A stretch of DNA of 64,000 nucleotides. Source: a virus. A model generated the notes under the pieces. It made no database searches. It worked only from the letters and a program-made list of their open reading frames with translations, and had not been told where the DNA came from. The translations under genes and the position numbers were made by a program. Location: IMG/VR virus record IMGVR_UViG_3300024346_009227, positions 52,975 to 116,974 of that record. One strand, 5' to 3'. Shown piece after piece: positions 14,901 to 60,655 of the stretch (its first letter is position 1; each line of letters starts with the position of its first letter).

Positions 14901-17900
14901 CAATCTATTAATATTAGCTGTAGCAGCATCTGCTGCTGCTGTAAGTTTTACTCCAATTCCTTGATTTAATTCACTAACTGCTGTAAGACTAGATTCAAAT
15001 TTTTCTGCATTTATTCCTTGGTCCTCTGCTTTATTTGCAATTTTAACCCCAAGAGAATTTGATCCTCCAAGTTCTTGTTCGGATTTACTTACTTTTTCTC
15101 TTGCATCTTTATTTGTTTGTTGCGTAACATTTTGTACGGCTTTTGTTATTGCATCTTGTATATTTCCACCTTCTGAAACTGTAGCTATTGCTTCTGATTG
15201 AACAGATTTGCTTTCTTTTCCTGATAATCCTATTTTTGATAATATTTCATTTAATGTATCTGATTTTGCAGCAATTTCTTTTGCTGCTTCTGGACCTTGT
15301 TTATTAGAAAATGAACTTCCTATTGATTTTTTAAATTCATCACCCCTTAAAGATTCTCCAACATTTGAATATTTTTTATCTGCTTCTTTTTTTTCTTCTC
15401 TTGCTTTTATTAAACTTGATATTTTTCCTTTGTTTGCTGTAACATCTTTTAGGTTTTCATCAGTTACTCCAGCTTCTCTAAGAAAACCACTTTTTTCTTG
15501 AACATCTTTTATTCTTGCAGACTTTTGAACTTCCCTATTTTTTTCATCTTGAACTTGACTCTTTTCCATGCCAGCAATAAATTTATCTAGGTTTGAATAA
15601 AATGTAGTGTTCTGTTTTGTCAACTGAGAAAAATAATCAGTCTGTAAACTTCTTTGATTTCCAATTAACTCTTGATTTGCTTTTACTTGTTCGTCATATA
15701 CTTTAGCTAATTTTCCAACCAACATATCTTCTTCTGGTTTCTTTTTTCCTAAACCAGTAGTATTACGCACAATATTGTCCGCAATATCTTTTCCAACTGG
15801 ACCAAAACTATCTAAAAATGCAAAAAGTGCCTTGTTTTGTTCAGAACTAAAATTACTTACATTTCCACCTTGAGCTTGTGCTTGTTTAAGTAATCCTTGT
15901 CCTTGAACTCTATCTCTTAATATTTTTTGTCTTTCTTTTGGATCTGCCGTTAAAAACTCTCTTCCTCTTTGAGTTTCATTATCTCTTTCTTGTCTTACTT
16001 GACCAAGCTTGCCTTCCAAAATAGCAAGATTGTTTGATTGATCTGCCAAGTTCTTTAATGACTCTTGCAAATTTGAAGCTTCTGATTTTAATTTAACTAA
16101 CTCAGATGCTGCACCTCTAAATGCAGCCCCACCACCTTCTGCACCAGAAGCATTCTGTACTTTTGGTTCTAACTCCCTAATTCTTTCTTGTGTTCTTTTT
16201 AGATTATCTCCGATTACTCTAGAGTCCTGTGCTTCTGCTCCTTTAGTTCCAGTAAGCCTTTCTTGATTTGTTCTAAAGCCCTGCATTTGTCTATCTACTG
16301 AAATCAAGTTCCCTGCTTGTGATGGCAAACCAGCATTTGTAGCAACAGTCTCTGCTGTAAACTTATCTCTCTGTAGTTTTGCACCTTCTAAGTTTTTAAA
16401 AGATTCGCCAATTTGTTTTTGTCTTTGAGCTAAATTTTCTAAACCACTAATATATTGATTACTTGCATTTTCTAATCTTTGACTTATATCTTTAGCTGCA
16501 TTTAAAAATGGGTCTTTTATATTACCAAGTAGTTTTTCTGCAACCTTAGATACATCGCCACCAGCTTCAGCAAGCAGCTTCGTGTATTCTTGTCCAGATA
16601 CATTTCCAGCAACAGAACTAACAACTCTTTCTGCTCCAGCCCCACTAATACCTTGAGCACTTAAAGCTTCTCTTAAACCAGAGGCTATTTGTATGGCTAT
16701 GTCCTGACCACCAACAGGATCTTCTATTGCACCAGCAAGTAATGACGGCAATGCTTGTGAGGCTGCATTAATTGCATTTCCTTGAGTCTTAAATTCATTG
16801 CCATAAGTTCCAAGTGAATCAGAAAGTTTAGAAACGGCAGAATTAAAAGAATTAAAGTCTGGAGTTGATTTTTGATCAAACTGATTAGAAATTCCAGTTA
16901 CTTTTGTTGATCCAATACCGCCACTAAAAAATGACTCATTTGTGCTTAACCTATTAGAGAAACTTTCTACCGAATTAGCAGCAGCAACAACTGCTTCTGA
17001 TAATAATGCCATAGAATTTATAGATCTTTGATTTACAGTTACTGCTTCTTTTTGAGTTTTTTCTAATTGTGCAGCTTTAAAAGAATCTTTCATTACTTTT
17101 ACAATTTCTTTTTTAACATCATCAAAGCTTACATTTCTTGCATTAGCAATTTTTTGTATTTGTGCATTATTAAATCCACCACCGCCACTAGTTAATTTGG
17201 TATCTAATGATGCTGCAAAATCTTTATAGTCTAATGTTCCAGCATTTCCACCAGCCTGTCTTACTGCACTAGAACCAAGTTGTTCGGCTTGTTTATTTAA
17301 AATATTCGTAAGTGGAACTATTTGTGCAGCACCAGCTTCTTTTTGACTTTTTGAATTTAATTCGTTGAATTTTTTAACATCAAATCCACCAAAACCGCCA
17401 CCAGTAATTCCAGATATTAGTCTGTCAAAACCATTTTTCTCTCCACCAGCTTCAACGAATGCTTTTCCAGCGTTTGCTTCAGTAATAATTTTTTGATTTG
17501 CTGCAATTGATTCGGCAATAGTATCATCAAAAGTTCTTAACCCAGTATTTAATTTATCAAATGTTCCTTGCAATCCTGTTAGTGCAGCACCTAACTTTAC
17601 TTCTCTTATTTGTGCCTCTGCTTCTTTAGTGCCATCAGCATAACCTTTTATTAATCCAACAAATGCACCTAAAGCACCGCCTACAAGAGTACCTACTGGC
17701 CCAAGTGCCGAAAAAGCGGTAGCAGTAGTAGCAGCATATGTTCCAGCTTTTTCAATAGCACCAGCAAATTGAAGTGTGGACCTATAAGCTTCTTGCTGTG
17801 CTTTATCTTCAACAACTACTCCTTGTTCATTTGCTTTTGCAAGAGAAGAAACTTCTGGTGCTCCTGCTCTCATTCCAGAAGCAAGTAAAGATCCACCAAC

Positions 17901-20900
17901 AGCAGCAGTTGTTATTCTATTGGCGTAACCAGATGCTCTATCTTGTTTAAACTGTCTTTCTCCCTCTGCACCAGCTTCAAAATCAGTTCGTTTTGAACCT
18001 ACAAGTCTTTGCCCAAAATCTTTTACCTTACCTTGGAATGTTAAATCGCCACTTTCTTTATAATCTCCACCTTTAATTAATTTTGATCCTAAAGACTTAT
18101 CTCCTGTTAGTTCTCCTTGTTTATTAAAAACTGCCCCTCTTTTTCCTTGAGCAAACTGCTTAGTGTATTGATCAGTCATAGACTGGATTTGCAATTCGCT
18201 AACAGGTTTTACTTCTTTTTGTGCTTTTGCTCTAAGTTGTTTTTCTGTTGCTGCTCTATATTCATTAACTATTCCACTTCTTATATCTTCTCTTTCGCTT
18301 TTTCTAGGGGCTTTACCATCATTTTGTTTAGCGTATTCTTTTTCTCTTTGTTTTGAAATTTGTTTTATTGAATCAGGTGTAGTTATTGGCTTTGTTTGTC
18401 CAATTGGCCTTCCTTTTTCATTTACAATCTCACCCTTTGCATTTACTTGGAATGATCTAGTGGCTTTTTCTCCTGATGCTTTTGCTGCTGCTTTTGCCGT
18501 TTCGGCTTTTTGTATATTTGCTTCTGCATCTTTTATAGATTGTTCTGTTTTTAAAATTTCATTTTGAACATTTAATTGTTTAGTTCCAACAGCAGTAATG
18601 CTATTTTCTATTGCCACTCTATTTTGAGCATTTGTATTTCTATCATTAAGAAGTTTTTGATAATCTTGATTTAACTTTAAAATTTGTGCATCTTCTTTTG
18701 ATGTGTCTACTGCCGTTCTTGCCTTAGTATCTCTTGCGTTTGTTGCTGTAGTCAAAGCACTTTCAGCTTTTGTTATTTTTGCATCTATTGCTTTTGATTT
18801 TAATGGTTTTTCAGCTTCCAATTTTTCTGCTTTCGCCTTATCGATTTCTTCCTGTTCTTTTTTTGTGTTAGGAACTTTGTTGTCTCTTGCAGTAGTAGCT
18901 TGCGTAAGAGCATCTTCTGCTCTCATTATTTTTGTGTCTATGTTTTTTGTTTTTAATGGCTTACTAGCTTTTGCTAATTCGTCTTTTGCTTTATCAATTT
19001 CTTCTTGTTCTTTTTTTGTGTTAGGTCCAGCAGCAGTTTTATCTGCCATCTGTTTTGTCAATACATCTCTTTGTCTTTTTGCTTCTGCTATTTGTGCATT
19101 CACAACTCTAACTGATTCACCAGCATCTAATTTAGATTTTTTTCTTGCTTCTAGAACAGAAATTCTTCCGGTAATATTTCCAACTTTTGCAGTTTCACTT
19201 TTTAAGTTTACTGGCTGTTGAGATTTTAATCTTTTTGCTTCTTCTGCTTCTGCAAGTCTTTGACTCGCTGCATCAATTTTTGCTTGCTTCGCTTCTTGCA
19301 TGTCCTTCTTTTTTTGCTTTAAATCATCGACTTTTTGTTTTGTCGAAACAACTCTTTTATTTTCTTGAGTTAAATCTACTGGTTGAGCTTCTTTTGTGAT
19401 TTTTGCTTGTTCTGCTGCTGCAATTCTTTGATCTGCTGCATCTATTTTTGCTTGTCTAGCCTCTTCCATGTCTTTCTTTTTATCTTTTAATTCATTTACT
19501 TTTGTTTGTGCAGATCCAACCCTTGTATTTTCTTTAGTTAAATCTTGTCCTGCTGCTGCTTTTGCATCTCTAGCAGCTACTATTGCTGTACCCTTTGCCC
19601 TTAATTCTAATTCAGCAGTATATGAAGCATCTGCTGCATCTGTATTCTTCTGAAGTGCTTCCGCTAAACTAGTTGCTTCTTTACCTAAAGTAGATAGTGT
19701 TTTACCAAAACCCTTTAGTTCTGTATTAAAAACACCAATATTTGATTTTTCTGCCGATATGTCTTGATCTGCTCTAGCAACATTTCCAATTGCTTGATTT
19801 GATGTTTGATTTTGAACTTTTATTTCACTTACAATTCTTGTGGCTTCTGCTTTTGCATCTTTTTTTGATATTTCTGGATCTGACTCCATTATTTGATCAA
19901 CTAATGTTAAAAGTATTTTCTTTAAATTGTTTGGGCTATTTAAAAATGTATCACTAACTATACTATTACCAACTTCACCACCTTTTTTAAATTTTGCAAA
20001 ACTATTCATTTGATGAAGTTTATTAGCACCAATTTTCTTTGCTTCGCTAGGGCTATATACATATTCACCTGGCGTGAGTAATGCAGGAACTTTACCACCA
20101 GATGCAAATTTGTGAGCATTAGCTAAATTATCAATGCCTATGCTATTAACTGAAGACTTTTTAATTACAAAAGAACCTTCGTCTAAATCCATTGGAACTG
20201 TGTCAGAATTGCCAGTTCCTGGTACTAATCCACCAGAAGCAAAACCCCTAGCTTTTTTTCTTTCTTCCATCATTTCTTTTGTGATTGCTACTGATTTTCC
20301 TAAAGTTGGATCTAATGCTAATGCAGGAAGTGGCTTGTATATATCTTCACTATATTTTTTAGATTCTTTGGTCTTTTTAGATGGTTTCCTTACCATTATT
20401 GGTGGGGCATCTCCTTTGCCTATGCTTTTACTAAATTTTCTTTCACGACTACGAGATTCCCTATTTGTCTCTTCTATTGATGCCTTTTTTATACCAAAAA
20501 TATCATTTCTTTTTTGTTCGAGATATTCGCCCCAAGATCTTTCTGGTGCAATTCTCCGAATATTTGTATTTATTGGTGTGATACCATCATTCATTAAAGA
20601 CAATTTTCTTAGTGCTTCCTCTTTATCTCTAGCGGGAATACTTCCTTTTTTACCCTGTTCGTCTTGATAAGAAAATCTAGCCAAACCTTTATTTTTTTCA
20701 TCTTCTGATTTTCTTGATTTTTCATACATCATACCGCCAACTGCTCCAGCACCAAATCCTAAAGTGCCACCAATAAATGCCCCCGGAATACCACCAAGAA
20801 GAGCACCACCAACAGCACCAGTAATACCTCCAGCAATAGCACCAGCGGGTCCAGCCAAAATTCCTTTAGCATCTCTTTCTTGTCTTTCTGATTCTTCTAT

Positions 20901-36442: not shown

Positions 36443-36888
36443 TAATAACTTCCCCCCATTACACAAACTTGCAATGCAGTAGTACTAGCAGTAGTAGTAA
36501 CACTAACAGAGGCAAAAAGTTTAAATGTAGATGGCAAAACAAGAGGATTGGCAAAAGTCAATGTGGTAGTAAATCCAGCAACAGTAGTTGAAGGAGTTAC
36601 AGCGGTCACAAGTATTTCTGTAAACAAATAAGCTGTAGTACCATCATGTACCCATATGCCTACGATATTACCAGCGGTAGGTGCTGTAAAAGCGGTAGAG
36701 CAAGCATTGACTTGAATAGCATCAATTCTTAGCCCATTAGTAGAAGTGGGTACAACCTCTACTATATTTGCTGCTGCAAGACTAGCTGTTACTGTTGGAC
36801 CTCTAGTTGTACACGCTGTTTGTGCTGCAAGTGTTTTTGCAACAAAGTATGGAGCTTGAGGAAAAATAGGTGTTGATGTAACTGGCAT
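36442..36888 (-). CDS. Hypothetical structural protein, Ala/Thr-rich
   Basis: A 148-aa protein beginning MPVTSTPIFPQAPYFVAKT, whose ATG overlaps the TAA of the 761-aa collagen-like gene (TAATG). It is rich in Thr, Ala and Val and beta-strand in character (NIVGIWVHDGTTAYLFTEILV; TLTFANPLVLPSTF), resembling small beta-sandwich virion proteins. It has no membrane helix. Position between the collagen-like fibre and the collar genes suggests a fibre-associated or adaptor role. No family recognised. Confidence 0.5.
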   Translation of the reverse strand: MPVTSTPIFPQAPYFVAKTLAAQTACTTRGPTVTASLAAANIVEVVPTSTNGLRIDAIQVNACSTAFTAPTAGNIVGIWVHDGTTAYLFTEILVTAVTPSTTVAGFTTTLTFANPLVLPSTFKLFASVSVTTTASTTALQVCVMGGSY

Positions 36889-39173
36889 TATAAACCTCCA
36901 AAGTTGTTAGCTAAGAAAACATTGCTTGCTGCTGATGGGGCGGTTGACCAAGACAATACGCCAGAACCACTAGTGATTATTACTCCACCATTAGCACCAT
37001 CTGTTGTTGGCAAAGTCCATATTACACTATTTGCTATATTGTCGCCAGCTTTGAATCCTACATAAGTTGTTCCATTTGCTGCCAGTTCATAAAATCTTAA
37101 TTCGCTTGTGTTGCCAGCAGAAGTATTAAAAGGAGTTAAATTTAAAGATCTTGCTAAATATAGTGCGTAGTTAGTATCTACATAAAGAAGATTAGTTCCA
37201 CCAAAGTTTTGTACTGTAAATAAATTTGCTGATGGAGAAGAAGATCCTTGGATAGCTATGCCAACTCCAGTCGAAACCTTTACTGTTGTGCCATCAAAAG
37301 TAAAGCTGGAAGATCCAGCAGCAGCATTGCTTCCATCTTTATAAACAACTTGATTTGCAGATCCAGCCACTGGGCCAGTTAAACCTTGGTTTCCTTGATT
37401 TCCTTGTGAGCCTTGATTTCCTGTTCCAGTTAAACCTTGGTTTCCTTGATTTCCTTGTGAGCCTTGATTTCCTGTTCCAGTTACTCCTTGGAAACCTTGG
37501 TTTCCTTGTCCTTGAAATCCTTGATCGCCCTGATGACCTTGAAAACCTTGTCTGCCTTGAAAACCCTGTTCTCCTTGCCACCCTTGATCGCCCTGATGAC
37601 CTTGAAAACCCTGTCTTCCTTGAAATCCTTGATCTCCTTGTGAGCCTTGATTGCCTTGATGGCCTTGAAATCCTTGTGTACCTGTTCCAGTTGAACCTTG
37701 TAAACCTTGCGATCCCTGTGAGCCATAACCTTGTGCTCCTTGTTGACCCTGCTGGCCTTGCTCACCTTGCAAACCATAGCCTTGAGCACCCTGTTCACCT
37801 TGTGATCCTTGTGAACCATAACCCTGCAATCCTTGTAAGCCTTGTAATCCCTGCGAACCAACTTGGCCTTGGCTACCTTGAAAACCTTGTTGACCCACTG
37901 AACCTTGTGACCCTTGAAATCCTTGCAATCCTCTTGATCCTTGTGCTCCTATTGCTCCCTGATCCCCCTGCTCTCCTGATCCTGATGGCATTGGAGTTGT
38001 AATTACACATGAACACTCTCCAGTATCGCCCTTAATACCTTGTCTACCTTGATTGCCTTCAAACCCTTGCCTTCCTTGACTTCCTTGAAAACCATCATAT
38101 CCTTGATAACCTTGAAAGCCTTGAACACCCTGATTTCCTTGTTCTCCTTGATATCCTCTTGCCCCAGTTAAACCTTGTTGACCTTGTTCGCCCTGATCTC
38201 CTTGTGGCCCTCTAATCTGCCCAATATTTTTCCAATAGATCGGAGAAATGTCAGTATGTATTAAACCATCGCCAATAGCAGCAACTCGACCACTTGGATC
38301 AGGACATGGATATGTTGCAGTGCCTTGACTTACATCTGTTAATACCCAAACATCATGCAAGATGGCCCCAACAGTTTCATCGTTGAATACATTTTGCCAA
38401 CTGTCAGAACCTATGATTACAGAACCATATCCTACATCACCTTGATAACCTTGATCTCCCTGATTTCCTTGATACCCCTGATTTCCGCTATAACCTTGTT
38501 CGCCTTGTTCACCTAATCCTTGATAGCCTTGATCGCCCTGTTCTCCTTTATTTCCTTGATCTCCCTGACTACCATTTGATCCTTGGCTACCTTGATTTCC
38601 AGTAGTTCCAACAACGCCTTGATGCCCTTGAAATCCTTGTGATCCAAAAGTACCTTGACTTCCTTGATCACCAACATCTCCTTTTAATCCTTGAAATCCC
38701 TGATCGCCTTGATTTCCCTGATCTCCTTGGTAGCCTTGATTGCCCTGATTCCCTTGATCTCCATAAACACCTTGATTTCCTTGATCTCCCTGATCTCCAT
38801 AAACACCTTGATTCCCTTGTCTTCCTTGATTGCCTTGATCGCCCTGATAACCTTGATCTCCTTGATATCCCTGATCACCTTGCGAGCCTTCATCTCCTTG
38901 ACTTCCTTGTTGACCTTGTGATCCTTGGTCACCTTGATCTCCTTGATTTCCTTGGTCGCCTTGGTGTCCTTGTCTTCCTTGAAAACCTTGAAAACCCTGT
39001 TCTCCTTGAGTGCTTTGAAAACCTTGATTTCCTTGATTTCCTTGATCTCCTTGAGAACCTTGTGCCCCTGGAACGCCTATAGATATCCAACCAGTATTAT
39101 TGTATACCCATGACCTTTCGCCAAATGTGTATATATCACCTAATTCTGGATCGTCAGGAAAATTTATTGGCAT
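36888..39173 (-). CDS. Collagen-like fibre protein (761 aa)
   Basis: The protein begins MPINFPDDPELGDIYTFGE, preceded by AGGACATACGAT. A ~34-residue N-terminal head leads into a collagen-like stretch of Gly-X-Gln triplets (GDQGNQGNQG) to ~245. A globular insert at ~245-320 (SDSWQNVFNDETVGAILHD; IYWKNIGQIRGPQG) is also present in the 2845-aa protein. A second collagenous run extends to ~600, interrupted by a short CSCVITTPMPSG break. The C-terminal ~160 residues form a globular domain ending SNVFLANNFGGL. Trimeric collagen helices with a globular tip are typical of receptor-reaching fibres. The Gln-rich Y position and absence of Pro-hydroxylation signals suit a bacterial cytoplasm. Confidence 0.8.
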   Translation of the reverse strand: MPINFPDDPELGDIYTFGERSWVYNNTGWISIGVPGAQGSQGDQGNQGNQGFQSTQGEQGFQGFQGRQGHQGDQGNQGDQGDQGSQGQQGSQGDEGSQGDQGYQGDQGYQGDQGNQGRQGNQGVYGDQGDQGNQGVYGDQGNQGNQGYQGDQGNQGDQGFQGLKGDVGDQGSQGTFGSQGFQGHQGVVGTTGNQGSQGSNGSQGDQGNKGEQGDQGYQGLGEQGEQGYSGNQGYQGNQGDQGYQGDVGYGSVIIGSDSWQNVFNDETVGAILHDVWVLTDVSQGTATYPCPDPSGRVAAIGDGLIHTDISPIYWKNIGQIRGPQGDQGEQGQQGLTGARGYQGEQGNQGVQGFQGYQGYDGFQGSQGRQGFEGNQGRQGIKGDTGECSCVITTPMPSGSGEQGDQGAIGAQGSRGLQGFQGSQGSVGQQGFQGSQGQVGSQGLQGLQGLQGYGSQGSQGEQGAQGYGLQGEQGQQGQQGAQGYGSQGSQGLQGSTGTGTQGFQGHQGNQGSQGDQGFQGRQGFQGHQGDQGWQGEQGFQGRQGFQGHQGDQGFQGQGNQGFQGVTGTGNQGSQGNQGNQGLTGTGNQGSQGNQGNQGLTGPVAGSANQVVYKDGSNAAAGSSSFTFDGTTVKVSTGVGIAIQGSSSPSANLFTVQNFGGTNLLYVDTNYALYLARSLNLTPFNTSAGNTSELRFYELAANGTTYVGFKAGDNIANSVIWTLPTTDGANGGVIITSGSGVLSWSTAPSAASNVFLANNFGGL
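37375..39080. repeat. Collagen-coding DNA repeats in the 761-aa fibre gene
   Basis: Nine-base repeat units based on CAAGGAGAT/CAAGGATTT (read leftward) recur throughout, coding Gly-X-Gln triplets. They create many spurious open frames in other registers. The repeats are interrupted at ~38215-38438 by the globular insert and near 37980-38030 by a short break. Slippage between units is a likely source of length variation. Confidence 0.85.
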
Positions 39174-39183
39174 ATCGTATGTC

Positions 39184-42100
39184 CTAAGTTTTTATTATGT
39201 AGTTCAATGCCATACTTGGCTGCATATTGTTATGTGGATTATCACCACCAGTATTGTTTTTATTTTCTATAACTGGAGTAAATGTATGTGTATGGTCTAA
39301 GTTTGGAGAGTTATTAGTATAAACATCCCAACCAGCTTTTTCATTTCCTCGAACTATAAGCCTATCTAAATAACCACCACCAAGATTAGCAAATCCATTT
39401 GCCCCTGTTCCCAATCCTGCTCCAGCAGCTATTAATTGACTATGATTATGTACTTGATTATTAGACATATAGCCAGTATTACCACCATTGCTACCATATA
39501 CAATATTAGGATGACTATGTGATGGTATTTGACTAGCATTTAAAGTAATAGTTTCTGCCCCTACTGTAACAGACAATCCTCTATTTGTTAAGCCACTTCC
39601 TTGCCCAACACCAATTATTGTTCTGCCTCTTAAGTCTGGTACTCCAAATGTAGTGCCATTTCCTGCACTATATGTTGTTCCAATTACAGCAAATAATGCA
39701 GAATAAGTAACTCTAGAATAAGTGTTTGTACCATCACACAACAACCATCCAGCAGGAGCAGTGCTACCAGCGAAAGCAACTATTGATCCACTTGGAGTTG
39801 AAACTGCTGCTGGTGAACTAACCCAATTTGTTCCATCGCTTGTAAGAACATTACCAATTGTTCCAACAGATGTAAGCCCAGTTCCACCAGAGCTAACAGT
39901 TAAAGTTGCTGATAATCCACCAGCAGTAATTGCATTTTGATTTATCCAAGCTGGAGCAGCAGAACCATTTGATTTAAGTATTTGCCCACTAGTTCCAGCA
40001 GCAAGCATAGCTGTTGATCCAGAACCAGTTTGATATGAAATTTGTCCTGCTGCACCGCCAGCTAAATGTGTAGCTACTGATGATTTTCCAGTTGTGTCTT
40101 GATTAAGTATAGGTATATCAGAAGCAACTAAAGCTCTAAATGATGGAGCACCAGTAGAACCATTGGGTGATGCAAGAATAGTATTTGCTGTTTGATTAAC
40201 TAGACCTATTGTAAATCCACCAGCAGTAGTAACTGGAGAACCAGAAAGACTAAATATTGCTGGTACAGATAAGGATACAGATGTTACTGATCCGCTGGAT
40301 TGAAATCCTTGAGATCCTTGAACACCAACTAAGCCTTGATAACCCTGATAACCTTGTGAGCCATTTGTGCCACTAGAACCCTGTGATCCAGTGCCACCAG
40401 TTGCTCCTTGATATCCTTGATTTCCAGAACTTCCTTGAAGACCTTGAAGACCTTGACTTCCATTTGTTCCTTGGGAACCCTGAGAACCTTGTGCTCCAGT
40501 AGATCCAATTATTCCTTGTAATCCTTGTCTTCCCTGATAACCCTGTTCACCAACAGATCCTTGAACACCTTGATTTCCTTGTCTTCCTTGAAAGCCAATA
40601 TCTCCTTGACTTCCTTGAACACCTTGAAATCCTTGATCGCCTTGATTTCCGTAAATTCCTTGCCTACCCTGATCCCCTTGGTTTCCTTGGAATCCTTGAA
40701 CGCCTTGAATACCTTGATAGCCTTGTGGCCCTCTAATAAAACCAATATTCTGCCAATAGATAGGGGCATTGCCATTGTATATTAAACCATTTCCAATATT
40801 TGCAATACCAATAGATGGGTTTGGGCATCCTTCTGTTGCAGTTCCTTGTTCAGTGTCTGTAATTATCCAAACATCACCAACAGTAGCACCAGAGGTTTCA
40901 ACATTAAATATATTTTCCCAAGTGTCAGAACCTTTAATGCTAACACCAGATCCTGTCTGACCTTGATAACCTTGATATCCCTGATGCCCTTGAATACCTT
41001 GACTTCCTTGGTTGCCTTGTAATCCTTGAAAACCCTGATAACCTTGAAATCCTTGTTGTCCTTGATCGCCTTGAAGACCTTGATTACCTTGGTTACCTTG
41101 AAATCCTTGTCTTCCTTGTAAACCTTGTCTTCCTTGAAAACCTTGATCTCCCTGTTCGCCTTGTTCGCCTTGTGTTCCTTGTCTGCCTTGAGATCCTTGA
41201 TTGCCTTGAAAACCTTGATTGCCCCTATTTCCCTGTTCACCTTGATCACCTTGATCACCTTGTTCGCCTTGATTTCCTTGAAAGCCTTGTCTTCCTTGAA
41301 AACCTTGATATCCTTGATCGCCTTGATCGCCCTGATATCCTTGATTGCCTTGATCTCCTTGGATTCCTTGTCTACCTTGTCTTCCTTGAGATCCTTGTAA
41401 TCCAAAATATCCCTGATAACCTTGATCGCCCTGTTCACCTTTTAGTCCTAGAAATCCTTGGTTTCCTCTTAATCCCTGATTTCCTTGGTATCCTTGTTCA
41501 CCTTGTTCACCTTGTTCGCCTTGTTCTCCTTGATAACCTTGATTACCTTGATCGCCCTTAGAAACCAATAACGCCCAACCATTATTTGGTGGCGAAGAAC
41601 CTAATGACCAAGCACCAATGTTTACCAATTGATAAAATGAACCTTGGTATGTAACCGCATCATTTAAAACATATGTTGTTAATGAAGACCAAGTGCCTAT
41701 GTATGAGAATGGAACTTCACCTTGATAACCCTGATCACCTTGTGTGCCTTGATGACCTTGATATCCTTGATATCCTTGATATCCTTGGTTACCTTGATAG
41801 CCTTGCTGTCCTTGGTTCCCCTGATTTCCTTGAAGACCTTGAAAGCCTTGATAACCTTGTTCGCCTTGATGCCCTTGATATCCTTGTGTTCCTTGAAAAC
41901 CCTGATAACCTTGATCACCTTGATTGCCTTGATGTCCTTGAAAACCTTGTAATCCTTGTAAACCCTGCAATCCCTGACTTCCTTGAAAACCAGAACCTTG
42001 ATGTCCTTGTAAGCCTTGTGCCCCTATAGATCCAACAGGTTGAATCCAAATTCCAGTAACGCCATCATATATAAATATGTATATAATGCCTGTCGTTGTG

Positions 42101-45100
42101 TCTAACCACATATCACCAGCATCTGGAGATGATGGGGCAGTAGAACTAGCAGTATATATACCTCTATTTATTCCTTGGTATCCCTGATACCCTTGATATC
42201 CAGTATCACCCTTATCACCAGTTCTTGCAAAAGTGAGCAATACTTCATCATCGTTAGAAAATGTTCCACTTCCAGATAAATAAGAAATTGTAACATCAAA
42301 GAAGCTAGGCTCTTGTTCTGATGAATTGCTTATAGTATAAAGTGCAAATACTGTAGAGTCATTTTTCTTAGATAATTTAAAGTGGCCCTTCATCGTGCTT
42401 GTTGAAGCAGAGATTGTAGCTAAGAATAGAGAAAGATCTATGTTTGCATTATTTGGATTATCATCAATTATAACATGCGTAGCTGATGCAAGAGAAGCAT
42501 TGTTAAATCTTATGTAGTTATCGCCTGGATCATTGATTGAATAATTATTTGTATCTATTTTATATTCAACTGTTACACCGCCAAAACTACCAGTTGATCC
42601 CTGATATCCTTGATCGCCTTGATTGCCATAATTACCTTGATCGCCTTGTAATCCCTGATCACCTTGATTTCCATGTTCTCCTTGATTGCCTTGATCTCCT
42701 TGTAAACCTTGTTCGCCCTGCCAACCTTGATCGCCTTGATTCCCCTGATTCCCTTGTTCTCCTTGAAATCCTTGCTCGCCCTGATTTCCTTGGAAACCCT
42801 GTTCGCCTTGAAATCCTTGCTCACCTTGGAAACCTTGATCGCCTTGATTTCCTTGGAAACCTTGCTCACCCTGATTACCTTGTTCTCCTTGGAATCCTTG
42901 ATCACCCTGTGAACCTTGTTCACCCTGCCAACCTTGATTTCCCTGATCTCCTTGAAAACCTTGAAATCCCTGCTCTCCTTGATTTCCTTGGAATCCTTGT
43001 TCACCTTGAAAACCTTGATTTCCTTGACTACCTTGAAATCCTTGATCGCCCTGTTCACCTTGATTGCCTTGATAGCCTTGTTCTCCTTGATTTCCTTGAA
43101 AACCCTGTTCGCCTTGATTGCCTTGATGGCCTTGTTCTCCTTGATTTCCTTGTGGACCTTGATTGCCCTGTTGACCTTGAAATCCTTGATAGCCTTGGAT
43201 TCCTTGTAAGCCCTGATTGCCTTGAAACCCTTGAAAACCCTGTTCGCCTATTACCGGCACTACGCTGACAGTTGTTCTTGCAAACGAATAATATGCGTTT
43301 CCTTCGGTATACCATTTAAGTGAATGTGCTGTGCTATCATCATTATTTGCATAAATCTTAACGATCATACGATTAGTAGAATCTATAGTCGTTGTTGTTA
43401 AAACTAAATCCATTAAGGTTTCTACTGCATTAGTACTATCAGTCCACCCTATCATTGGAGCATTTGTTGATAATATTGGCCCTATTGGGGTTCCAGTAGA
43501 GTTTGCTAATTGTATTGTAATATAAGTTTGTATGTGGTCGTTTGAGGCTTGCTTTAGAAAGTGTTGGTGGAATAACTGAGATCCACCTGGTATAACTGAA
43601 AACCCTAATTGTGGCGTTATAAAGCTGGCAATGAGCACATCATTTGTATTTCCAGCCAATGATGTTGTCACCATCTGCTGAGATGTTGCAATTGGAGTTA
43701 TAGAAAGTTGTTTATAGCCATTTACATCAGATGCAACAGAGTAATTAAAATAATATGTCTCTCCAGTAGATTCGCCTCTATATCCCTGATTACCTTGAAA
43801 TCCTTGATTACCTTGCAAACCTTGCAATCCCTGTTCGCCTTGGTATCCTTGTTCGCCTTGATCTCCTTGATCTCCTTGATCTCCTTGATTTCCTTGTTGT
43901 CCTTGAAATCCTTGATCTCCTTGATAGCCCTGATCGCCTTGAATACCTTGTTCGCCTTGATAACCTTGAAATCCTTGATGACCTTGAATCCCCTGCTCTC
44001 CCTGCTCTCCTTGAAATCCTTGGTGACCTTGATCACCTTGATTCCCTTGGAAACCTTGGTCACCCTGATTGCCCTGATTACCCTGTGAACCTTGGTATCC
44101 TTGGTCACCTTTCTGAGCAATCAATGTCCAAAAAGTTCCTTCTGCGGGGGTATCCCCAAGATTGCCACCATTAGAATGAATGCGATACCAAGTTTGCCCT
44201 AAATAAGTTGCTATATCACCTATAGCATATGATGCACCACCACTATAAGCACCTGTGAAATTCCATAATGCATCTGATCCTTGATTACCTTGATTACCTT
44301 GCTCACCTTGGTTGCCTTGGTTGCCTTGATAACCTTGATTTCCTTGCTCACCTTGATTTCCTTGCTCACCTTGAAAACCTTGGTCACCTTGATTTCCTTG
44401 ATTTCCTTGAAAACCTTGATCACCTTGAAACCCTTGATCGCCTTGGAAACCTTGTTCACCCTGTGACCCTTGCTGACCTTGGTTTCCTTGAAAACCCTGC
44501 TCTCCTTGATCACCTTGGCTACCTTGATCTCCCTGATTTCCTTGTGAGCCTTGATATCCTTGATCGCCTTGCGAGCCAACAATACCAATAGACAGAGTAA
44601 CAAAATCTTCGTTGTTTATTACTCCATATGTACTAACTAGTGCCACATTAAATATTACATAACTTCCATCTTCAGTATCGTTTGTTGCAGTACCATCTAC
44701 GCAAGAAGTTATTTGATAAGTAACATATGTTGAAGGATTTGCTTGACTTGTTAGGGTTAAATAACCACTCTGAATACTTAAGAATAAATCATGTAGCGTA
44801 GTATTTAATCCGTATGGATTATCATCTACTTTAACTTGAGTGGCCGAAGTAAAAGGATCAGCATTAAAACTTATATAATCATTGGTAGGATCAAGATCTG
44901 TAAGAGTTGTTGTATTTACTTTGTATGTCCAAGACAATGCAGCAATTCCACGCTCGCCTTGATCTCCCTGATTTCCTTGCGAACCTTGCTCACCTTGCCA
45001 ACCTTGATAACCCTGTTCCCCTTGTGATCCTTGATTACCCTGTTCTCCTTGATTGCCTTGAAAACCTTGTTCTCCCTGATTTCCTTGATCTCCCTGATTT

Positions 45101-47721
45101 CCCTGTTCACCTTGAAATCCTTGATAACCCTGTTCGCCTTGAAAACCTTGATTTCCTTGATCTCCCTGATTACCTTGATTTCCTTGATCACCTTGAAAAC
45201 CTTGATTTCCCTGATCTCCCTGATCTCCCTGATTACCTTGAAATCCTTGGTTTCCTTGATGCCCTTGCGATCCTTGATCGCCTGTTCTAGCAAATGTAAT
45301 TATAACATCTTCACTGTTGACAAATGGAGTTGAACCACTTCCACTAACATATGAACAATCTACTTGAAAATAACCAGACAATTCACTCACATTAGAAATG
45401 GTGAATAATGCAAAAGAAGAAGAATCAAATTTTTTAGATACTCTAAAATGACCTTTAATTGTCGATGTAGAATCATCTATTGTTCTTAAAAATTCTTGAA
45501 TATCAGTAGAATTATCGTTTTGATCATCAATCAATAAATGTGTTGCATTTACAAGATTTGCTTGATCAAATTTTAATTTTCCAGAAGTTGGATCAGTATT
45601 ATCATTGTTAGAAATGAATGTGTAATCAAAAGAAGCACCACCAAAATTTCCATCATTGCCCTGATTGCCTTGATTACCTTGATTGCCTTGTATTCCTTGA
45701 GATCCTTGTAAACCTTGTAAACCTTGGAAACCCTGTTCTCCTTGGAATCCTTGATCACCTTGAAAGCCTTGGAATCCTTGATCACCTTGTTCTCCCTGAT
45801 TTCCTTGCAACCCTTGATCACCTTGGAATCCTTGATCTCCTTGATCTCCTTGAAATCCTTGATCACCTTGGAATCCTTGATCTCCTTGATCTCCTTGATC
45901 TCCTTGATTTCCTTGATCACCTTGATTTCCTTGATTTCCTTGATTCCCTTGATTCCCCTGATATCCTTGATCACCTTGGAATCCTTGAATTCCCTGATCA
46001 CCTTGCAATCCTTGATTGCCCTGATCTCCTTGAAAACCTTGTTCTCCAATTTTCCCTGCAAGACAAATTGAAAGAGTGTTATATGTTTTAAATCCTGGGC
46101 TTGAAGAATGCGTAACAACTGCAACTATATCCCCTGTTGTGGGATTATAAGAAGTTATTCGCATGTACTGTATAATATTGTCAGTCGGTGCGTATACAGA
46201 CAGTATTTGTCCAGCACCAAAAGCTAAACCTGTCGCTATAGGACTTTGATAATAATTTTCACCAACTGTTTGAAAATAATATTCGCCTGTGTTTTGTGTA
46301 GTGCAAATTAAAGGTGTTGTGCCTTGATTTCCTTGATACCCTTGATCACCTTGATTGCCTTGTAACCCCTGTTCACCTTGAAAACCTTGTTCTCCTTTTT
46401 CACCTTGTGATCCTTGATTTCCTTGTTCTCCCTGATTGCCTTGAAACCCCTGTTCGCCTTGAAATCCTTGTTCCCCCTGTTCACCTTGATATCCTTGATC
46501 ACCTTGGTTTCCTTGTGCCCCTTGTGCTCCTTGATCACCTTGATATCCTTGATTACCAGAATCCCCCTTATCTCCAGTTCTTGCAAAAGTTAAAAGTACT
46601 TCATCATTATTTGAAAATGTTCCATTTCCAGATAGATAAGAAATAACAACATCAAAAAAACTTGGTTCTTCTTCTGTTGCAGAACTAATTGAATAAAGTG
46701 CAAATACTGTCGAATCATTTTTCTTAGATAGTTTAAAGTGACCCTTCATTGTGCTTGTTGATGCGGAAATGGTATTTAAATATAAAGAAAGATCAATACT
46801 TGAGTTGTTTGGATTATCATCAATAATAACATGTGTAGCTAATGCAATATTAGAATTATTGAATCTTATAAAATTATCGCCGGGATCGTTTATTGTATAA
46901 TTAAGAGTGTCTATAAGGTATTCAACTGTGACACCACCAAAGTTTCCATTTGAACCTTGATTGCCTTGTTCACCTTGAAAACCCTGTTCGCCTTGAAATC
47001 CTTGGTTGCCTTGTTCACCTTGAAATCCTTGTTCACCCTGACCACCTTGAACTCCCTGTTCACCCTGCCATCCTTGATTTCCTTGAAAACCTTGTTCACC
47101 TTGGAAACCTTGATTGCCTTGCTCTCCTTGAAAACCTTGGTCGCCTTGATGACCTTGATCACCCTGTCTTCCCTGCCATCCTTGATCACCTTGCCAGCCC
47201 TGATCTCCTTGATGTCCTTGAAAACCTTGTCTTCCCTGCCATCCTTGTTCACCTTGCCAACCTTGATCTCCTTGATGACCTTGCCAACCTTGATCACCTT
47301 GACTTCCTTGTTGTCCTTGAAAACCTTGATCTCCTTGGTGACCTTGAAATCCTTGATTTCCTTGCCAACCCTGATCTCCTTGATGGCCTTGAAATCCTTG
47401 TCTTCCTTGATTTCCTTGATTTCCTTGAAAACCTTGTCTTCCTTGAGATCCTTGCGATCCTTGCGATCCAGTTGTTCCTTTTTCAGCAAAAATTGTCCAC
47501 CAACTATTTTCCGCAGGGGTAACTCCATCAATAGTTGATATGCAAATCCAAGACGAACCACCATATGTAACTACATCATTTACATAATATTGTGAACTAG
47601 GGTTATAGGCTCCACGAAAAGTAAGACCAACACCAATAGACCCTTGATTACCTTGGTCACCTTGATCTCCTTGAAAACCTTGTTCGCCCATTTGACCTTG
47701 ATGTCCTTGAACACCAATCAT
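39184..47721 (-). CDS. Giant collagen-like adhesin with multiple inserted domains and a tail collar tip
   Basis: From the first unbroken ATG the protein is 2845 aa. Gly-X-Gln collagenous runs are broken by globular modules. Three CBM5/12-like modules lie at ~33-85, ~1149-1202 and ~2002-2057 (e.g. GAYNPSSQYYVNDVVTYGGS … WWTIFAEKG). Four copies of a ~125-residue unit lie at ~259-387, 692-812, 925-1046 and 1712-1836 (e.g. ATHVIIDDNP … GHFKLSKKNDS). Unique inserts are at ~468-558, ~1317-1492 and ~1852-1900. A module at ~2257-2332 is shared with the 761-aa fibre. Residues ~2643-2845 are a tail collar domain (FAGSTAPAGWLLCDG; VPDLRGRTIIG; SHSHP; ALNYIIKT). This suggests a very long trimeric fibre that may bind polysaccharide. 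The ATG at 47721 has a poor ribosome site; see 47770-47877. Confidence 0.85.
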   Translation of the reverse strand: MIGVQGHQGQMGEQGFQGDQGDQGNQGSIGVGLTFRGAYNPSSQYYVNDVVTYGGSSWICISTIDGVTPAENSWWTIFAEKGTTGSQGSQGSQGRQGFQGNQGNQGRQGFQGHQGDQGWQGNQGFQGHQGDQGFQGQQGSQGDQGWQGHQGDQGWQGEQGWQGRQGFQGHQGDQGWQGDQGWQGRQGDQGHQGDQGFQGEQGNQGFQGEQGFQGNQGWQGEQGVQGGQGEQGFQGEQGNQGFQGEQGFQGEQGNQGSNGNFGGVTVEYLIDTLNYTINDPGDNFIRFNNSNIALATHVIIDDNPNNSSIDLSLYLNTISASTSTMKGHFKLSKKNDSTVFALYSISSATEEEPSFFDVVISYLSGNGTFSNNDEVLLTFARTGDKGDSGNQGYQGDQGAQGAQGNQGDQGYQGEQGEQGFQGEQGFQGNQGEQGNQGSQGEKGEQGFQGEQGLQGNQGDQGYQGNQGTTPLICTTQNTGEYYFQTVGENYYQSPIATGLAFGAGQILSVYAPTDNIIQYMRITSYNPTTGDIVAVVTHSSSPGFKTYNTLSICLAGKIGEQGFQGDQGNQGLQGDQGIQGFQGDQGYQGNQGNQGNQGNQGDQGNQGDQGDQGDQGFQGDQGFQGDQGDQGFQGDQGLQGNQGEQGDQGFQGFQGDQGFQGEQGFQGLQGLQGSQGIQGNQGNQGNQGNDGNFGGASFDYTFISNNDNTDPTSGKLKFDQANLVNATHLLIDDQNDNSTDIQEFLRTIDDSTSTIKGHFRVSKKFDSSSFALFTISNVSELSGYFQVDCSYVSGSGSTPFVNSEDVIITFARTGDQGSQGHQGNQGFQGNQGDQGDQGNQGFQGDQGNQGNQGDQGNQGFQGEQGYQGFQGEQGNQGDQGNQGEQGFQGNQGEQGNQGSQGEQGYQGWQGEQGSQGNQGDQGERGIAALSWTYKVNTTTLTDLDPTNDYISFNADPFTSATQVKVDDNPYGLNTTLHDLFLSIQSGYLTLTSQANPSTYVTYQITSCVDGTATNDTEDGSYVIFNVALVSTYGVINNEDFVTLSIGIVGSQGDQGYQGSQGNQGDQGSQGDQGEQGFQGNQGQQGSQGEQGFQGDQGFQGDQGFQGNQGNQGDQGFQGEQGNQGEQGNQGYQGNQGNQGEQGNQGNQGSDALWNFTGAYSGGASYAIGDIATYLGQTWYRIHSNGGNLGDTPAEGTFWTLIAQKGDQGYQGSQGNQGNQGDQGFQGNQGDQGHQGFQGEQGEQGIQGHQGFQGYQGEQGIQGDQGYQGDQGFQGQQGNQGDQGDQGDQGEQGYQGEQGLQGLQGNQGFQGNQGYRGESTGETYYFNYSVASDVNGYKQLSITPIATSQQMVTTSLAGNTNDVLIASFITPQLGFSVIPGGSQLFHQHFLKQASNDHIQTYITIQLANSTGTPIGPILSTNAPMIGWTDSTNAVETLMDLVLTTTTIDSTNRMIVKIYANNDDSTAHSLKWYTEGNAYYSFARTTVSVVPVIGEQGFQGFQGNQGLQGIQGYQGFQGQQGNQGPQGNQGEQGHQGNQGEQGFQGNQGEQGYQGNQGEQGDQGFQGSQGNQGFQGEQGFQGNQGEQGFQGFQGDQGNQGWQGEQGSQGDQGFQGEQGNQGEQGFQGNQGDQGFQGEQGFQGEQGFQGNQGEQGFQGEQGNQGNQGDQGWQGEQGLQGDQGNQGEHGNQGDQGLQGDQGNYGNQGDQGYQGSTGSFGGVTVEYKIDTNNYSINDPGDNYIRFNNASLASATHVIIDDNPNNANIDLSLFLATISASTSTMKGHFKLSKKNDSTVFALYTISNSSEQEPSFFDVTISYLSGSGTFSNDDEVLLTFARTGDKGDTGYQGYQGYQGINRGIYTASSTAPSSPDAGDMWLDTTTGIIYIFIYDGVTGIWIQPVGSIGAQGLQGHQGSGFQGSQGLQGLQGLQGFQGHQGNQGDQGYQGFQGTQGYQGHQGEQGYQGFQGLQGNQGNQGQQGYQGNQGYQGYQGYQGHQGTQGDQGYQGEVPFSYIGTWSSLTTYVLNDAVTYQGSFYQLVNIGAWSLGSSPPNNGWALLVSKGDQGNQGYQGEQGEQGEQGEQGYQGNQGLRGNQGFLGLKGEQGDQGYQGYFGLQGSQGRQGRQGIQGDQGNQGYQGDQGDQGYQGFQGRQGFQGNQGEQGDQGDQGEQGNRGNQGFQGNQGSQGRQGTQGEQGEQGDQGFQGRQGLQGRQGFQGNQGNQGLQGDQGQQGFQGYQGFQGLQGNQGSQGIQGHQGYQGYQGQTGSGVSIKGSDTWENIFNVETSGATVGDVWIITDTEQGTATEGCPNPSIGIANIGNGLIYNGNAPIYWQNIGFIRGPQGYQGIQGVQGFQGNQGDQGRQGIYGNQGDQGFQGVQGSQGDIGFQGRQGNQGVQGSVGEQGYQGRQGLQGIIGSTGAQGSQGSQGTNGSQGLQGLQGSSGNQGYQGATGGTGSQGSSGTNGSQGYQGYQGLVGVQGSQGFQSSGSVTSVSLSVPAIFSLSGSPVTTAGGFTIGLVNQTANTILASPNGSTGAPSFRALVASDIPILNQDTTGKSSVATHLAGGAAGQISYQTGSGSTAMLAAGTSGQILKSNGSAAPAWINQNAITAGGLSATLTVSSGGTGLTSVGTIGNVLTSDGTNWVSSPAAVSTPSGSIVAFAGSTAPAGWLLCDGTNTYSRVTYSALFAVIGTTYSAGNGTTFGVPDLRGRTIIGVGQGSGLTNRGLSVTVGAETITLNASQIPSHSHPNIVYGSNGGNTGYMSNNQVHNHSQLIAAGAGLGTGANGFANLGGGYLDRLIVRGNEKAGWDVYTNNSPNLDHTHTFTPVIENKNNTGGDNPHNNMQPSMALNYIIKT
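39790..47690. repeat. Collagen-coding DNA repeats in the giant adhesin gene
   Basis: Repeated nine-base units coding Gly-X-Gln fill most of this gene between the globular inserts. The units vary at the second triplet position, mostly Asp, Asn, Phe, Tyr, Glu, His, Arg or Trp codons. The many open frames on the opposite strand here (rich in Leu, Ile and Asp or in Lys and Ile) are shadows of these repeats and not genes. Confidence 0.85.
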
Positions 47722-57976: not shown

Positions 57977-58748
57977 CGTCTTTATCCTTTGGAATTAAAA
58001 CTGGTAGGTCTTGACTACCATCATCAAATGTATGAACGCTAGTTAACTTCTTCTCTTCTTTTTTAGTGGCAAGCTTCATGGTTTCCATAGTACCTCCCAC
58101 TAAGTCACGCTCTTCCTCATTCTGAAGTTTTTTAATGATTGCCAAGTATGTCTCTTTAGATGACTCGATACGAGTAATACGCTGATCTCTAGTTGCCTTT
58201 AAGTCCTTGAGCAATCCCTGATGTTTTTCTTCAAGTTTAATAAATTCTGTAGACCTAGCCTGTTCAGAAGATTTAGCTGCTTGTATCTGTGTCTCTAAGC
58301 CGAGCACATATTCACGATCAGATTCGGACATGCCTTGCATATCAGGAAATCTTCTCATATATTCTTCCTGCATTCTAATCAGCTTCGCTATCTCTTTGCC
58401 AGAGTTTCTTTTGCTTTTAGCATTCCTATGCATCATTATCTCAAACTTGATAACCAAAAATATTTGTGTTTCCTCAGTTACGAGAACATCTTCTCTGAAC
58501 TGGGCCATGTACTTTACATACTGCTCTTCAAAATATTCCAACTCTTCTTCATCCATTTCCTGCTTAAGCTGCTTCCAAGCTTTACTACTTCTTAAATTTT
58601 TATGATTTTCATCATTGAGTGTCTGTACAAACTCTTCAATTAGTACCACAGGCTTGAGCAAGAGCGTGCTCATATCTTCTAACGATAAAGTTTCATGGTG
58701 CTTAGTTATATAATCACGATCAGTTTTATTCAGCTTCTTTCCTGCCAT
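57969..58748 (-). CDS. Candidate terminase small subunit (HTH plus coiled coil)
   Basis: A 259-aa protein. I start it at the ATG at 58748 (MAGKKLNKTDRDYITKHHE), as AAGGAGATCCTCA lies just ahead; an earlier in-frame codon lacks this. Residues ~4-45 look like a helix-turn-helix (DRDYITKHHETLSLEDMSTLL). Long Lys/Glu/Gln-rich helices fill most of the rest, with QAAKSSEQARSTEFIKLEEK-like coiled coil at ~150-230. An N-terminal DNA-binding domain and a central oligomerising helix is the plan of terminase small subunits, and it precedes terL with gmd and the nuclease gene between. It could instead be a scaffold or transcription accessory. Assignment by plan and position. Confidence 0.5.
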   Translation of the reverse strand: MAGKKLNKTDRDYITKHHETLSLEDMSTLLLKPVVLIEEFVQTLNDENHKNLRSSKAWKQLKQEMDEEELEYFEEQYVKYMAQFREDVLVTEETQIFLVIKFEIMMHRNAKSKRNSGKEIAKLIRMQEEYMRRFPDMQGMSESDREYVLGLETQIQAAKSSEQARSTEFIKLEEKHQGLLKDLKATRDQRITRIESSKETYLAIIKKLQNEEERDLVGGTMETMKLATKKEEKKLTSVHTFDDGSQDLPVLIPKDKDDE

Positions 58749-59319
58749 TGAGGATCTCCTTAATTGCTTGTTCAACTCTTTGTTTTTTTATTTTGGGAAC
58801 AGACTCACCAGCTTTAATTCTAAGATATATTGAACGAAGTTCAACAGGAAGGTGCAAGTCTATTAGATTAGAACACTCAGATATGTTCGCCTCATCTACA
58901 ACAGATTGTTTTCCGTGTGCGTTCTTTTCTGTATCGTCTGAGATTGTTTGTATATCTAAGGGTCGCATTAAATTTTGCTTAGACGAATTCCTTTTTTTCC
59001 ATGCCTTATACTTTTCGCAGTAATTGCCATCTGAACATTTGTTCGAGTCATGACATGGTTTACATGGGGGATCTGTTCTATGATACTTGTCTCTCTTGAA
59101 ATTTATAAGTCTGTTTTTAATATGGGAATAAAGAAAGTTTTCTAAGGGGCGAGATGGGTCATAGCGAGATAAAGATTCAAGTCCAAATATGTAAGCTTCC
59201 TGCCTAATGTCTTCCACATCGTAATATCCGAAGGTAAATGTTGGGGCAAGAAGGTTGATCGCTTTCTTTAAAGCTGCTATAACTTCTTCTTCCTTTAATC
59301 CATGCGGATAATCATTCAT
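58726..59319 (-). CDS. Sigma-70-like factor with Cys cluster (candidate late sigma)
   Basis: A 197-aa protein beginning MNDYPHGLKEEEVIAALKK, with an 8-nt overlap with the short gene upstream. Residues ~34-78 look like sigma region 2 (DVEDIRQEAYIFGLESLSRYD … FLYSHIKNRLINFKRD). Immediately after is a four-cysteine cluster (CKPCHDSNKCSDGNYC), which could bind zinc or iron-sulphur. A reduced region 4-like segment lies at ~160-190. It is the first substantial gene of the leftward structural block, so it may direct late transcription, like T4 gp55. This is inference. Region 2 recognition is fair; region 4 is weak. Confidence 0.6.
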   Translation of the reverse strand: MNDYPHGLKEEEVIAALKKAINLLAPTFTFGYYDVEDIRQEAYIFGLESLSRYDPSRPLENFLYSHIKNRLINFKRDKYHRTDPPCKPCHDSNKCSDGNYCEKYKAWKKRNSSKQNLMRPLDIQTISDDTEKNAHGKQSVVDEANISECSNLIDLHLPVELRSIYLRIKAGESVPKIKKQRVEQAIKEILNGRKEAE

Positions 59320-59458: not shown

Positions 59459-59617
59459 GGCATCACCATTTTCTGCGAAAATTGTATTAGTACATCTTAT
59501 GTATGATACTATTGTTTCAATCGCATTGCAAGTGAGATTAAGCATTTAGGGGGCGAACAAGTATGGCTTTGGTAGTACATTGGGGAAAGTGTGGCTTGGT
59601 AAGTGACAACGCCCGGC

Positions 59618-59785
59618 TGCCATTTTGGCAGTCTGCCATTTTGGCATCCGAATTGAAAAAACCCCTGCCATTCTGTCATGCGACACCTGTCATTTTGGCA
59701 TCCCGCTGGTATTACCTAGTATTACTATTTTGGTATAACTTTGTTATATTTCAACCCTAGCAAGTAGCAATATGCCATTTTGGCA
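59618..59785. promoter_or_regulatory. Five copies of palindrome TGCCA-TTT-TGGCA (operator family I)
   Basis: Perfect copies are at 59618-59630, 59634-59646 and 59773-59785. Near-perfect copies are at 59666-59678 (TGCCATTCTGTCA) and 59688-59700 (TGTCATTTTGGCA). Each has 5-bp arms around a TTT centre, and some extend to 6-7 bp. Clustered copies with unequal spacing (16, 32, 22 and 85 bp) are what a dimeric repressor or an origin-binding protein would bind. Confidence 0.8.
59707..59750. promoter_or_regulatory. Two copies of operator family II palindrome
   Basis: TGGTATTAC-CTA-GTATTACT (59707-59726) and TTGGTATAAC-TTT-GTTATATT (59730-59750) are two imperfect dyads of consensus TGGTATWAC-N3-GTWWTACCA. 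Four more copies lie upstream of the small rightward genes. They sit between family I copies, so the two factors may interact here. Confidence 0.7.
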
Positions 59786-60039
59786 TGGCATTTAAAGCTT
59801 CTATAATGCTATTATTTTGAGCGATTACATTTATTGAGTAAATATACAAATATTAAATATTTTCGCTTAAAATCGATTTTCTCACTTTTAAGAATGGTGC
59901 AATCTTTACTAAAATAGTAATCTATCTTATTTGTATTTTTATAAACTATTTTATTATTTTTAAAATAAGTAGAATTCATGAAGATTTATTTATTTTTGTT
60001 TTTTTGTGGATATTGGGGTTGATTTATACCGATACAATT

Positions 60040-60102
60040 ACTAACATAATATTAGTTAGTTATTTGTTTTTTAGATTCTACTTTTTAGACTCTACAAATA
60101 AC
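60040..60102 (+). promoter_or_regulatory. Leader inverted repeats before the second sigma-like gene
   Basis: ACTAAC/GTTAGT (60040-60045, 60055-60060) and the perfect GTTATTTGT/ACAAATAAC pair (60059-60067, 60094-60102) flank a tandem TTTTTAGATTCTAC / TTTTTAGACTCTAC repeat. In RNA the second pair would form a hairpin ending ~9 nt before the AAGGATT ribosome site, so it could gate translation. Confidence 0.5.
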
Positions 60103-60127
60103 AAACAAGGATTAAGGATTTTTAGCT

Positions 60128-60655
60128 ATGGAAAATATGAAAAATGTATCTAATGATGAGATTGTTACCATTACTGCAAAAATGATCGGAGTCGGTCGAA
60201 AATACGGTTTTCAATCGGCCGATTGTCAAGACCTTGCTCAAGATGTTTTATATGTTGCGATAAGAAAATATAATCCTAATAAGGGAGCAAAATTCGCAAC
60301 ATTTTGCTGGTATCTATTCAATCGTAAGGTAATTGATGGACTTAGAAGAATTAATCATAAGTACTACAAAAAAACTTCCATTGCTAAAATGATGGATAAG
60401 GAGGAGGGTAATAATAAAGAAATTCAAGGTAAACGCCTTGACACAATGTCCGTCTTAAAGATGCATTTAAAGGATAATTTCGACGCTGGAATTATCACAC
60501 GGAAAGAACACGATGTTTTAGTTCTTAGGGCCCATGGTAACGATTTCTATGAAATTGCAAGTATACTTGATATTTCACTAGGATCGGCACATGGCACATA
60601 TCAAAAAGGCCTTGCCATGATATGTGAAGACGATGGTATCTTAGGGGCTGTTTAG
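60128..60655 (+). CDS. Sigma-70-family factor (ECF-like)
   Basis: A 175-aa protein beginning MENMKNVSNDEIVTITAKM, with AAGGATTTTTAGCT ahead of its ATG. Residues ~30-75 are region 2 (ADCQDLAQDVLYVAIRKYN … KFATFCWYLFNRKVIDGL). Residues ~125-165 are region 4 (EHDVLVLRAHGNDFYEIASI, SLGSAHGTYQKGLA). The two-domain plan is that of ECF sigma factors, with no region 3. It is the first rightward gene beside the operator array and ends in a strong terminator, so it is transcribed as its own unit. It may direct RNA polymerase to phage promoters such as the repeated TTGAAT-N18-AATAAT sites, but this link is untested. Confidence 0.8.
   Translation: MENMKNVSNDEIVTITAKMIGVGRKYGFQSADCQDLAQDVLYVAIRKYNPNKGAKFATFCWYLFNRKVIDGLRRINHKYYKKTSIAKMMDKEEGNNKEIQGKRLDTMSVLKMHLKDNFDAGIITRKEHDVLVLRAHGNDFYEIASILDISLGSAHGTYQKGLAMICEDDGILGAV

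Follow-up and report, generated by a model that had tools for sequence, protein, structure and literature searches.

A palindrome of the sigma-54 chaperone regulon in the divergent control region of a probable planctomycete phage

In phage repressor operators such as lambda OR/OL and the L5-type stoperators, several short palindromes lie over early promoters in a divergent control region. The locus described here shares this arrangement but differs in two ways: no linked phage repressor was found, and the site matches a host regulon. Within the stretch examined, moreover, no lysogeny gene was recognized. Binding sites of host factors such as LexA, IHF or CRP can also occur in phage control regions, and here too a putative host transcription factor site lies in the control region of a phage, with the difference that it belongs to the sigma-54 chaperone regulon. 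The nearest parallel in sequence is the sigma-54 chaperone enhancer of Planctomycetota and Bacteroidota, which would be read by an NtrC-family activator; chaperones are enriched in the predicted sigma-54 regulons of both (survey, PMC12316311). Like that enhancer, the phage locus has multiple copies, upstream of genes, of a 13-bp palindrome (TGYCANNNTGRCA) that is the same down to its degenerate positions. Unlike it, the phage has no consensus -24/-12 promoter, its sites lie over sigma-70-like -35 boxes, and the spacing is different. In the literature that we searched, we found no report of sigma-54 enhancers, or of sigma-54 chaperone-regulon sites, in phage genomes.

The DNA analyzed, called the window, is a stretch of 64,000 nucleotides (positions 52,975 to 116,974 of the viral record IMGVR_UViG_3300024346_009227), and coordinates are those of the window unless another record is named. 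A sequence-only reading of the window had described three perfect and two near-perfect palindrome copies within 168 bp, exactly between the leftward structural genes and the rightward early genes, and had interpreted them as operators or, possibly, an origin. All five copies are indeed there, and a sigma-like gene heads each of the two gene blocks. From left to right, the region contains the following features.

58726-59319, minus strand: sigma-70 region 2 protein (197 aa), at the start of the leftward structural block, after a short gene
59572-59616, plus strand: conserved element to the left of O1, GTAGTACATTGGGGAAAGTGTGGCTTGGTAAGTGACAACGCCC (pattern GTARTACATT...TGGCTTG.T.AGTG..AAC.GCCCC)
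59618-59630, no strand: O1, exact copy of TGCCATTTTGGCA, with arms of 6 bp counting the flanking C/G
59634-59646, no strand: O2, exact copy of TGCCATTTTGGCA
59666-59678, no strand: O3, degenerate copy TGCCATTCTGTCA, two mismatches; intact (TGCCATTCTGGCA / TGCCATTTTGGCA) in the relatives L007 and L012
59688-59700, no strand: O4, TGTCATTTTGGCA, one mismatch; its right arm is the -35 box of P2
59773-59785, no strand: O5, exact copy of TGCCATTTTGGCA; its right arm is the -35 box of P1
60128-60655, plus strand: sigma-70 region 2 protein (175 aa), the first rightward early gene

Successive copies are spaced 16, 32, 22 and 85 bp apart. Arms of 7 bp had also been described, an overestimate: the longest perfect arms are 6 bp (CTGCCA..TGGCAG at 59617-59631 and ATGCCA..TGGCAT at 59772-59786). 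With up to two mismatches allowed, the window has 11 matches, compared with 3.05 +/- 1.79 in dinucleotide shuffles; no shuffle out of 100 had as many as 11. All copies with at most one mismatch lie inside the array. In the whole record of 116,974 bases there are four copies with at most one mismatch, all of them in the array, and the reversed control gave none. Further copies scattered through coding sequence, which the sequence-only reading had named as the observation that would count against it, are therefore not seen at this stringency. The degenerate palindrome TGYCANNNTGRCA likewise occurs four times in the 117-kb record, 4/4 inside the array, when about 0.29 would be expected per record and 0.0004 per 168 bp. 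The view that the array is a cluster of cis-regulatory sites at a divergent switch region is supported.

Four promoters were predicted around the array.

59503-59531, minus strand: PL, predicted leftward promoter TTGCAA-N17-TATCAT, conserved in close relatives
59695-59722, plus strand: P2, predicted promoter TTGGCA-N16-TAGTAT, with its -35 inside O4
59780-59807, plus strand: P1, predicted sigma-70-like promoter TTGGCA-N16-TATAAT, with its -35 inside O5; the best rightward promoter in the intergenic region
60019-60047, plus strand: P3, predicted promoter TTGATT-N17-TAACAT, just 5' of the first early gene

Two of the five sites thus overlap predicted early promoters, O4 and O5 containing the -35 boxes of P2 and P1, respectively; O1-O3 overlap no good promoter. 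P1 is kept in L007, L010 and L012 (there with TTGTCA), and a -10 as good as its own is found at 0.4% of positions in the region. P2 is kept in L010 and L018, and in L007 with TTGACA; its -10 is weak alone, with 13% of the region's positions equally good. The element at 59572-59616 is conserved whether or not a relative has palindromes, and distant relatives (L065, L072 and L088) have it too. It has no conserved RNA fold and no conserved pairs, and is possibly a late promoter or a packaging site.

Relatives were collected by means of the flanking sigma-like gene. In these loci, palindromes of this type are retained in the corresponding intergenic region and are absent from the rest of the locus; their number (2-4), spacing and center vary among the relatives. 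Two relatives, L015 and L016, have no palindromes; their sigma-like proteins are 77-79% and their terminases 86-87% identical to those of the window phage. In both, tandem TGAAGAA/TGTGAAGATTTGATGAAGATT and TACCTATCTTA repeats take the place of the palindromes (L015 440-1100; L016 4700-5500, reverse strand), which looks like an exchange of one operator type for another. That the palindromes are kept in place, yet are missing in L015 and L016, implies that selection acts on the sites but that they can be replaced, a pattern that is in keeping with operators and disfavors an essential origin.

The array carries the palindrome TGYCA-N3-TGRCA that characterizes the planctomycete-type chaperone-regulon enhancer. 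In bacterial genomes, there are at least 118 matches in which this palindrome precedes a sigma-54 promoter by 39-69 bp, against a chance estimate of about 3-4. Among the matches listed, the taxa are mainly Planctomycetota, Poribacteria, Bacteroidales and Nitrospirota, and the downstream gene is most often dnaK, otherwise hsp20, groES/EL, htpG, clpB or dnaJ. Palindrome-promoter distances among these listed matches cluster near 41, 53 and 64-69 bp, which fits helical phasing, as expected. A second copy, which the search pattern did not require, is present in 18/118 of the matches listed (0.09 expected), and among them it is mostly 20-24, 40-45, 63 or 71 bp away. When the Planctomycetota were taken separately, 16 of 392 genomes had the palindrome with a sigma-54 promoter (reversed control, 0). 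Planctomycete dnaK upstream regions, chosen independently of the motif, carried the palindrome in 11 of 27 cases, against 0.03 expected and 0 in the control. The degenerate position is the same in the phage sites and in the host enhancers. Of 30 planctomycete dnaK loci, 7 have, immediately before dnaK, a gene for a regulator of the NtrC family with GAFTGA and a Fis-type HTH. The identity of the phage palindrome with the chaperone-regulon enhancer, as judged by sequence comparison, is a new element that was absent from the earlier reading.

The window phage and its closest relatives have no sigma-54 consensus, and the array therefore cannot act there as a classical sigma-54 enhancer. The best candidate near the array, a weak site at 59642 (TGGCATCCGAATTGAA), is partly conserved; we did not accept it as a sigma-54 promoter, because the essential -12 GC is missing. 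A -24/-12 promoter 40-70 bp downstream of a palindrome, present in the distant L113, was tested for and found absent in the window phage, and for this reason we do not file the array as a sigma-54 enhancer, describing it instead as carrying a putative binding site of that system.

In more distant phages, the palindromes are accompanied by sigma-54-like promoters. Each of the three palindromes of L113 precedes a sigma-54-like site by 46-59 bp. The same stretch (L113 1-2300) has a second repeated motif, TGTAGCATTTTGC, beside the palindromes. In G002, a distant relative with a terminase 48% identical, 23 of the 24 palindromes fall within an early region of about 13.5 kb. Most of them form pairs with a 29-bp spacing in front of early promoters, and sigma-54 consensus sites accompany them. 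A scan of viral contigs revealed 40 stretches with both palindrome and sigma-54 promoter and at least 120 with close palindrome pairs. Twelve dense loci (130 kb), which are partly homologous and were picked for their palindromes, contain 207 palindromes versus 1 in the reversed control and 71 strict sigma-54 sites versus 0; of about 112 close pairs in these loci, 94 have a spacing of precisely 29 bp. The viral contigs L348, L328, L331, L407 and L431 have many TGCCANNNTGGCA pairs with this exact spacing, and several of these contigs have sigma-54-like sites on both strands, making a candidate large regulon.

The likely host of these phages can be approached through a DUF1501 protein (E 5e-91) that G001, a close relative with the same terminase as the window phage (100% identity), encodes beside a CsrA homologue (L270 13488-14992); G005 has a copy 97% identical to it. 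The protein has matches in 158 of 246 Planctomycetota genomes, the best at 44-45% identity over the full length, and in 9 of 247 Bacteroidota genomes, at 30-35% and partial. Because the G001 protein matches mostly Planctomycetota, the host of the phage group is probably a planctomycete, the window phage being included by inference. The terminase was also considered as a host clue and set aside: known phages are only about 25% identical, and 392 Planctomycetota genomes gave no match, a result uninformative on host.

Taken together, these data lead us to propose, tentatively and at a little under an even chance, that the array consists of operators for the rightward early promoters with the specificity of the host NtrC-family activator of the chaperone regulon. 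Because this operator has the sequence of the enhancer palindrome in the host sigma-54 chaperone regulon, the NtrC-family enhancer-binding protein of that regulon would be the most likely binder of the array, and we infer it to be the most economical candidate. A protein on O4 and O5 would cover the -35 boxes of P2 and P1 and could block or gate these promoters, whether by repression or by activation, and early transcription would thereby become responsive to the state of the host proteostasis regulator. O1 and O2, which lie between the leftward promoter and O4/O5, could contribute cooperative binding. Where distant relatives have sigma-54 promoters, these sites would work as true enhancers. 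This model suggests that a host stress regulator, or an imitator of it, controls phage early genes. The main doubt about a host regulator is the 29-bp pairing in the dense phages, which is unlike the host; since host spacings are different, the binding mode or the protein may differ. The benefit to the phage of repression by a host factor is not obvious, which also counts against the host regulator. A further point against the model is that O1-O3 are not placed over a good promoter.

On a wider scale, we think it possible, with reservations, that a broad group of planctomycete phages has its early genes wired into the host sigma-54 proteostasis regulon, carrying up to dozens of enhancer copies, often as 29-bp pairs with sigma-54 promoters. 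The window clade would have reused the palindrome as operators inside sigma-70 early promoters, and the host stress regulator would set phage expression. If true, this would be a direct link between phage early transcription and a host stress regulon in Planctomycetota, where phages and heat-shock control are both little studied. The motif would then predict which phylum a metagenomic phage infects, and the NtrC-family gene next to dnaK would be a candidate for the protein that regulates the chaperone regulon of planctomycetes.

The main rival is a phage regulator with the same specificity: a phage-encoded protein of undescribed fold would bind the palindromes and run the early/late switch, and it would share the palindrome with the host through having evolved to read, or interfere with, host chaperone sites. 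Such a regulator would account for sites at early promoters in several phage groups, for fixed 29-bp pairs that differ from host spacing, and for an array that, in the manner of immunity-type operators, is swapped for different repeats in close relatives. It leaves the identity with the host enhancer unexplained or convergent, however, and no phage protein was found to track with the palindromes, some records being incomplete. The search for a small DNA-binding protein, which the sequence-only reading had recommended, yielded none that tracks with the sites, and no Fis-type HTH scored above the cut-off among the proteins of 22 phage records, some of them incomplete. The only conserved small early candidate for DNA binding, an HTH-like protein (50-74 aa) with a C-terminal GRRP/GRRK tail, is encoded beside the switch in many relatives (L278 16159-16377; G003 42939-43163; the early side of L020/L024). 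The window clade has lost it, whereas records free of palindromes have it; since its distribution does not follow that of the palindromes, we rejected it as the binder. On balance, we consider a phage-encoded regulator rather unlikely.

An improbable alternative is that the copies are decoys, titrating the host chaperone activator and so dampening or retuning the heat-shock response as phage DNA replicates. The lack of sigma-54 promoters at the window-clade sites and the number of sites (4-5 in each genome and as many as 24 in one relative) are compatible with titration, but placement is not random: the window-clade sites are at promoters, forming -35 boxes, and many phage copies adjoin sigma-54-like promoters.

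An iteron-type replication origin, the second role originally entertained, is very improbable. The repeats do adjoin a stretch of 76-80% A+T (59770-60129), yet their spacing is irregular and no initiator gene is adjacent, the neighbors being sigma-like and small uncharacterized proteins. The palindromes are missing from L015 and L016, even though other repeats stand in their place, and the G002 copies are spread over their 13.5 kb at gene starts. Of the two proposed roles, it is that of operator that is strengthened, by the position kept in relatives, the absence of copies elsewhere in the record and the overlap with -35 boxes.

RNA hairpins or terminators in place of DNA operators can be given almost no weight, even though each copy could fold into a 5-6 bp hairpin and T-runs follow copies in some relatives, because the common variant TGCCA...TGACA loses a base pair on one strand, the copies in the window are not followed by a T-run, a search of Rfam gave no match, and host enhancers show the same degenerate position.

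Finally, the window has no tRNAs. A 4941-aa open reading frame with hydrophobic segments occupies the tape-measure position (8904-23729), suggesting an unusually long tail. Two very long proteins, 761 and 2845 aa in length and collagen-like (GxQGxQG), are encoded at 36888-47721 and probably form tail fibers.
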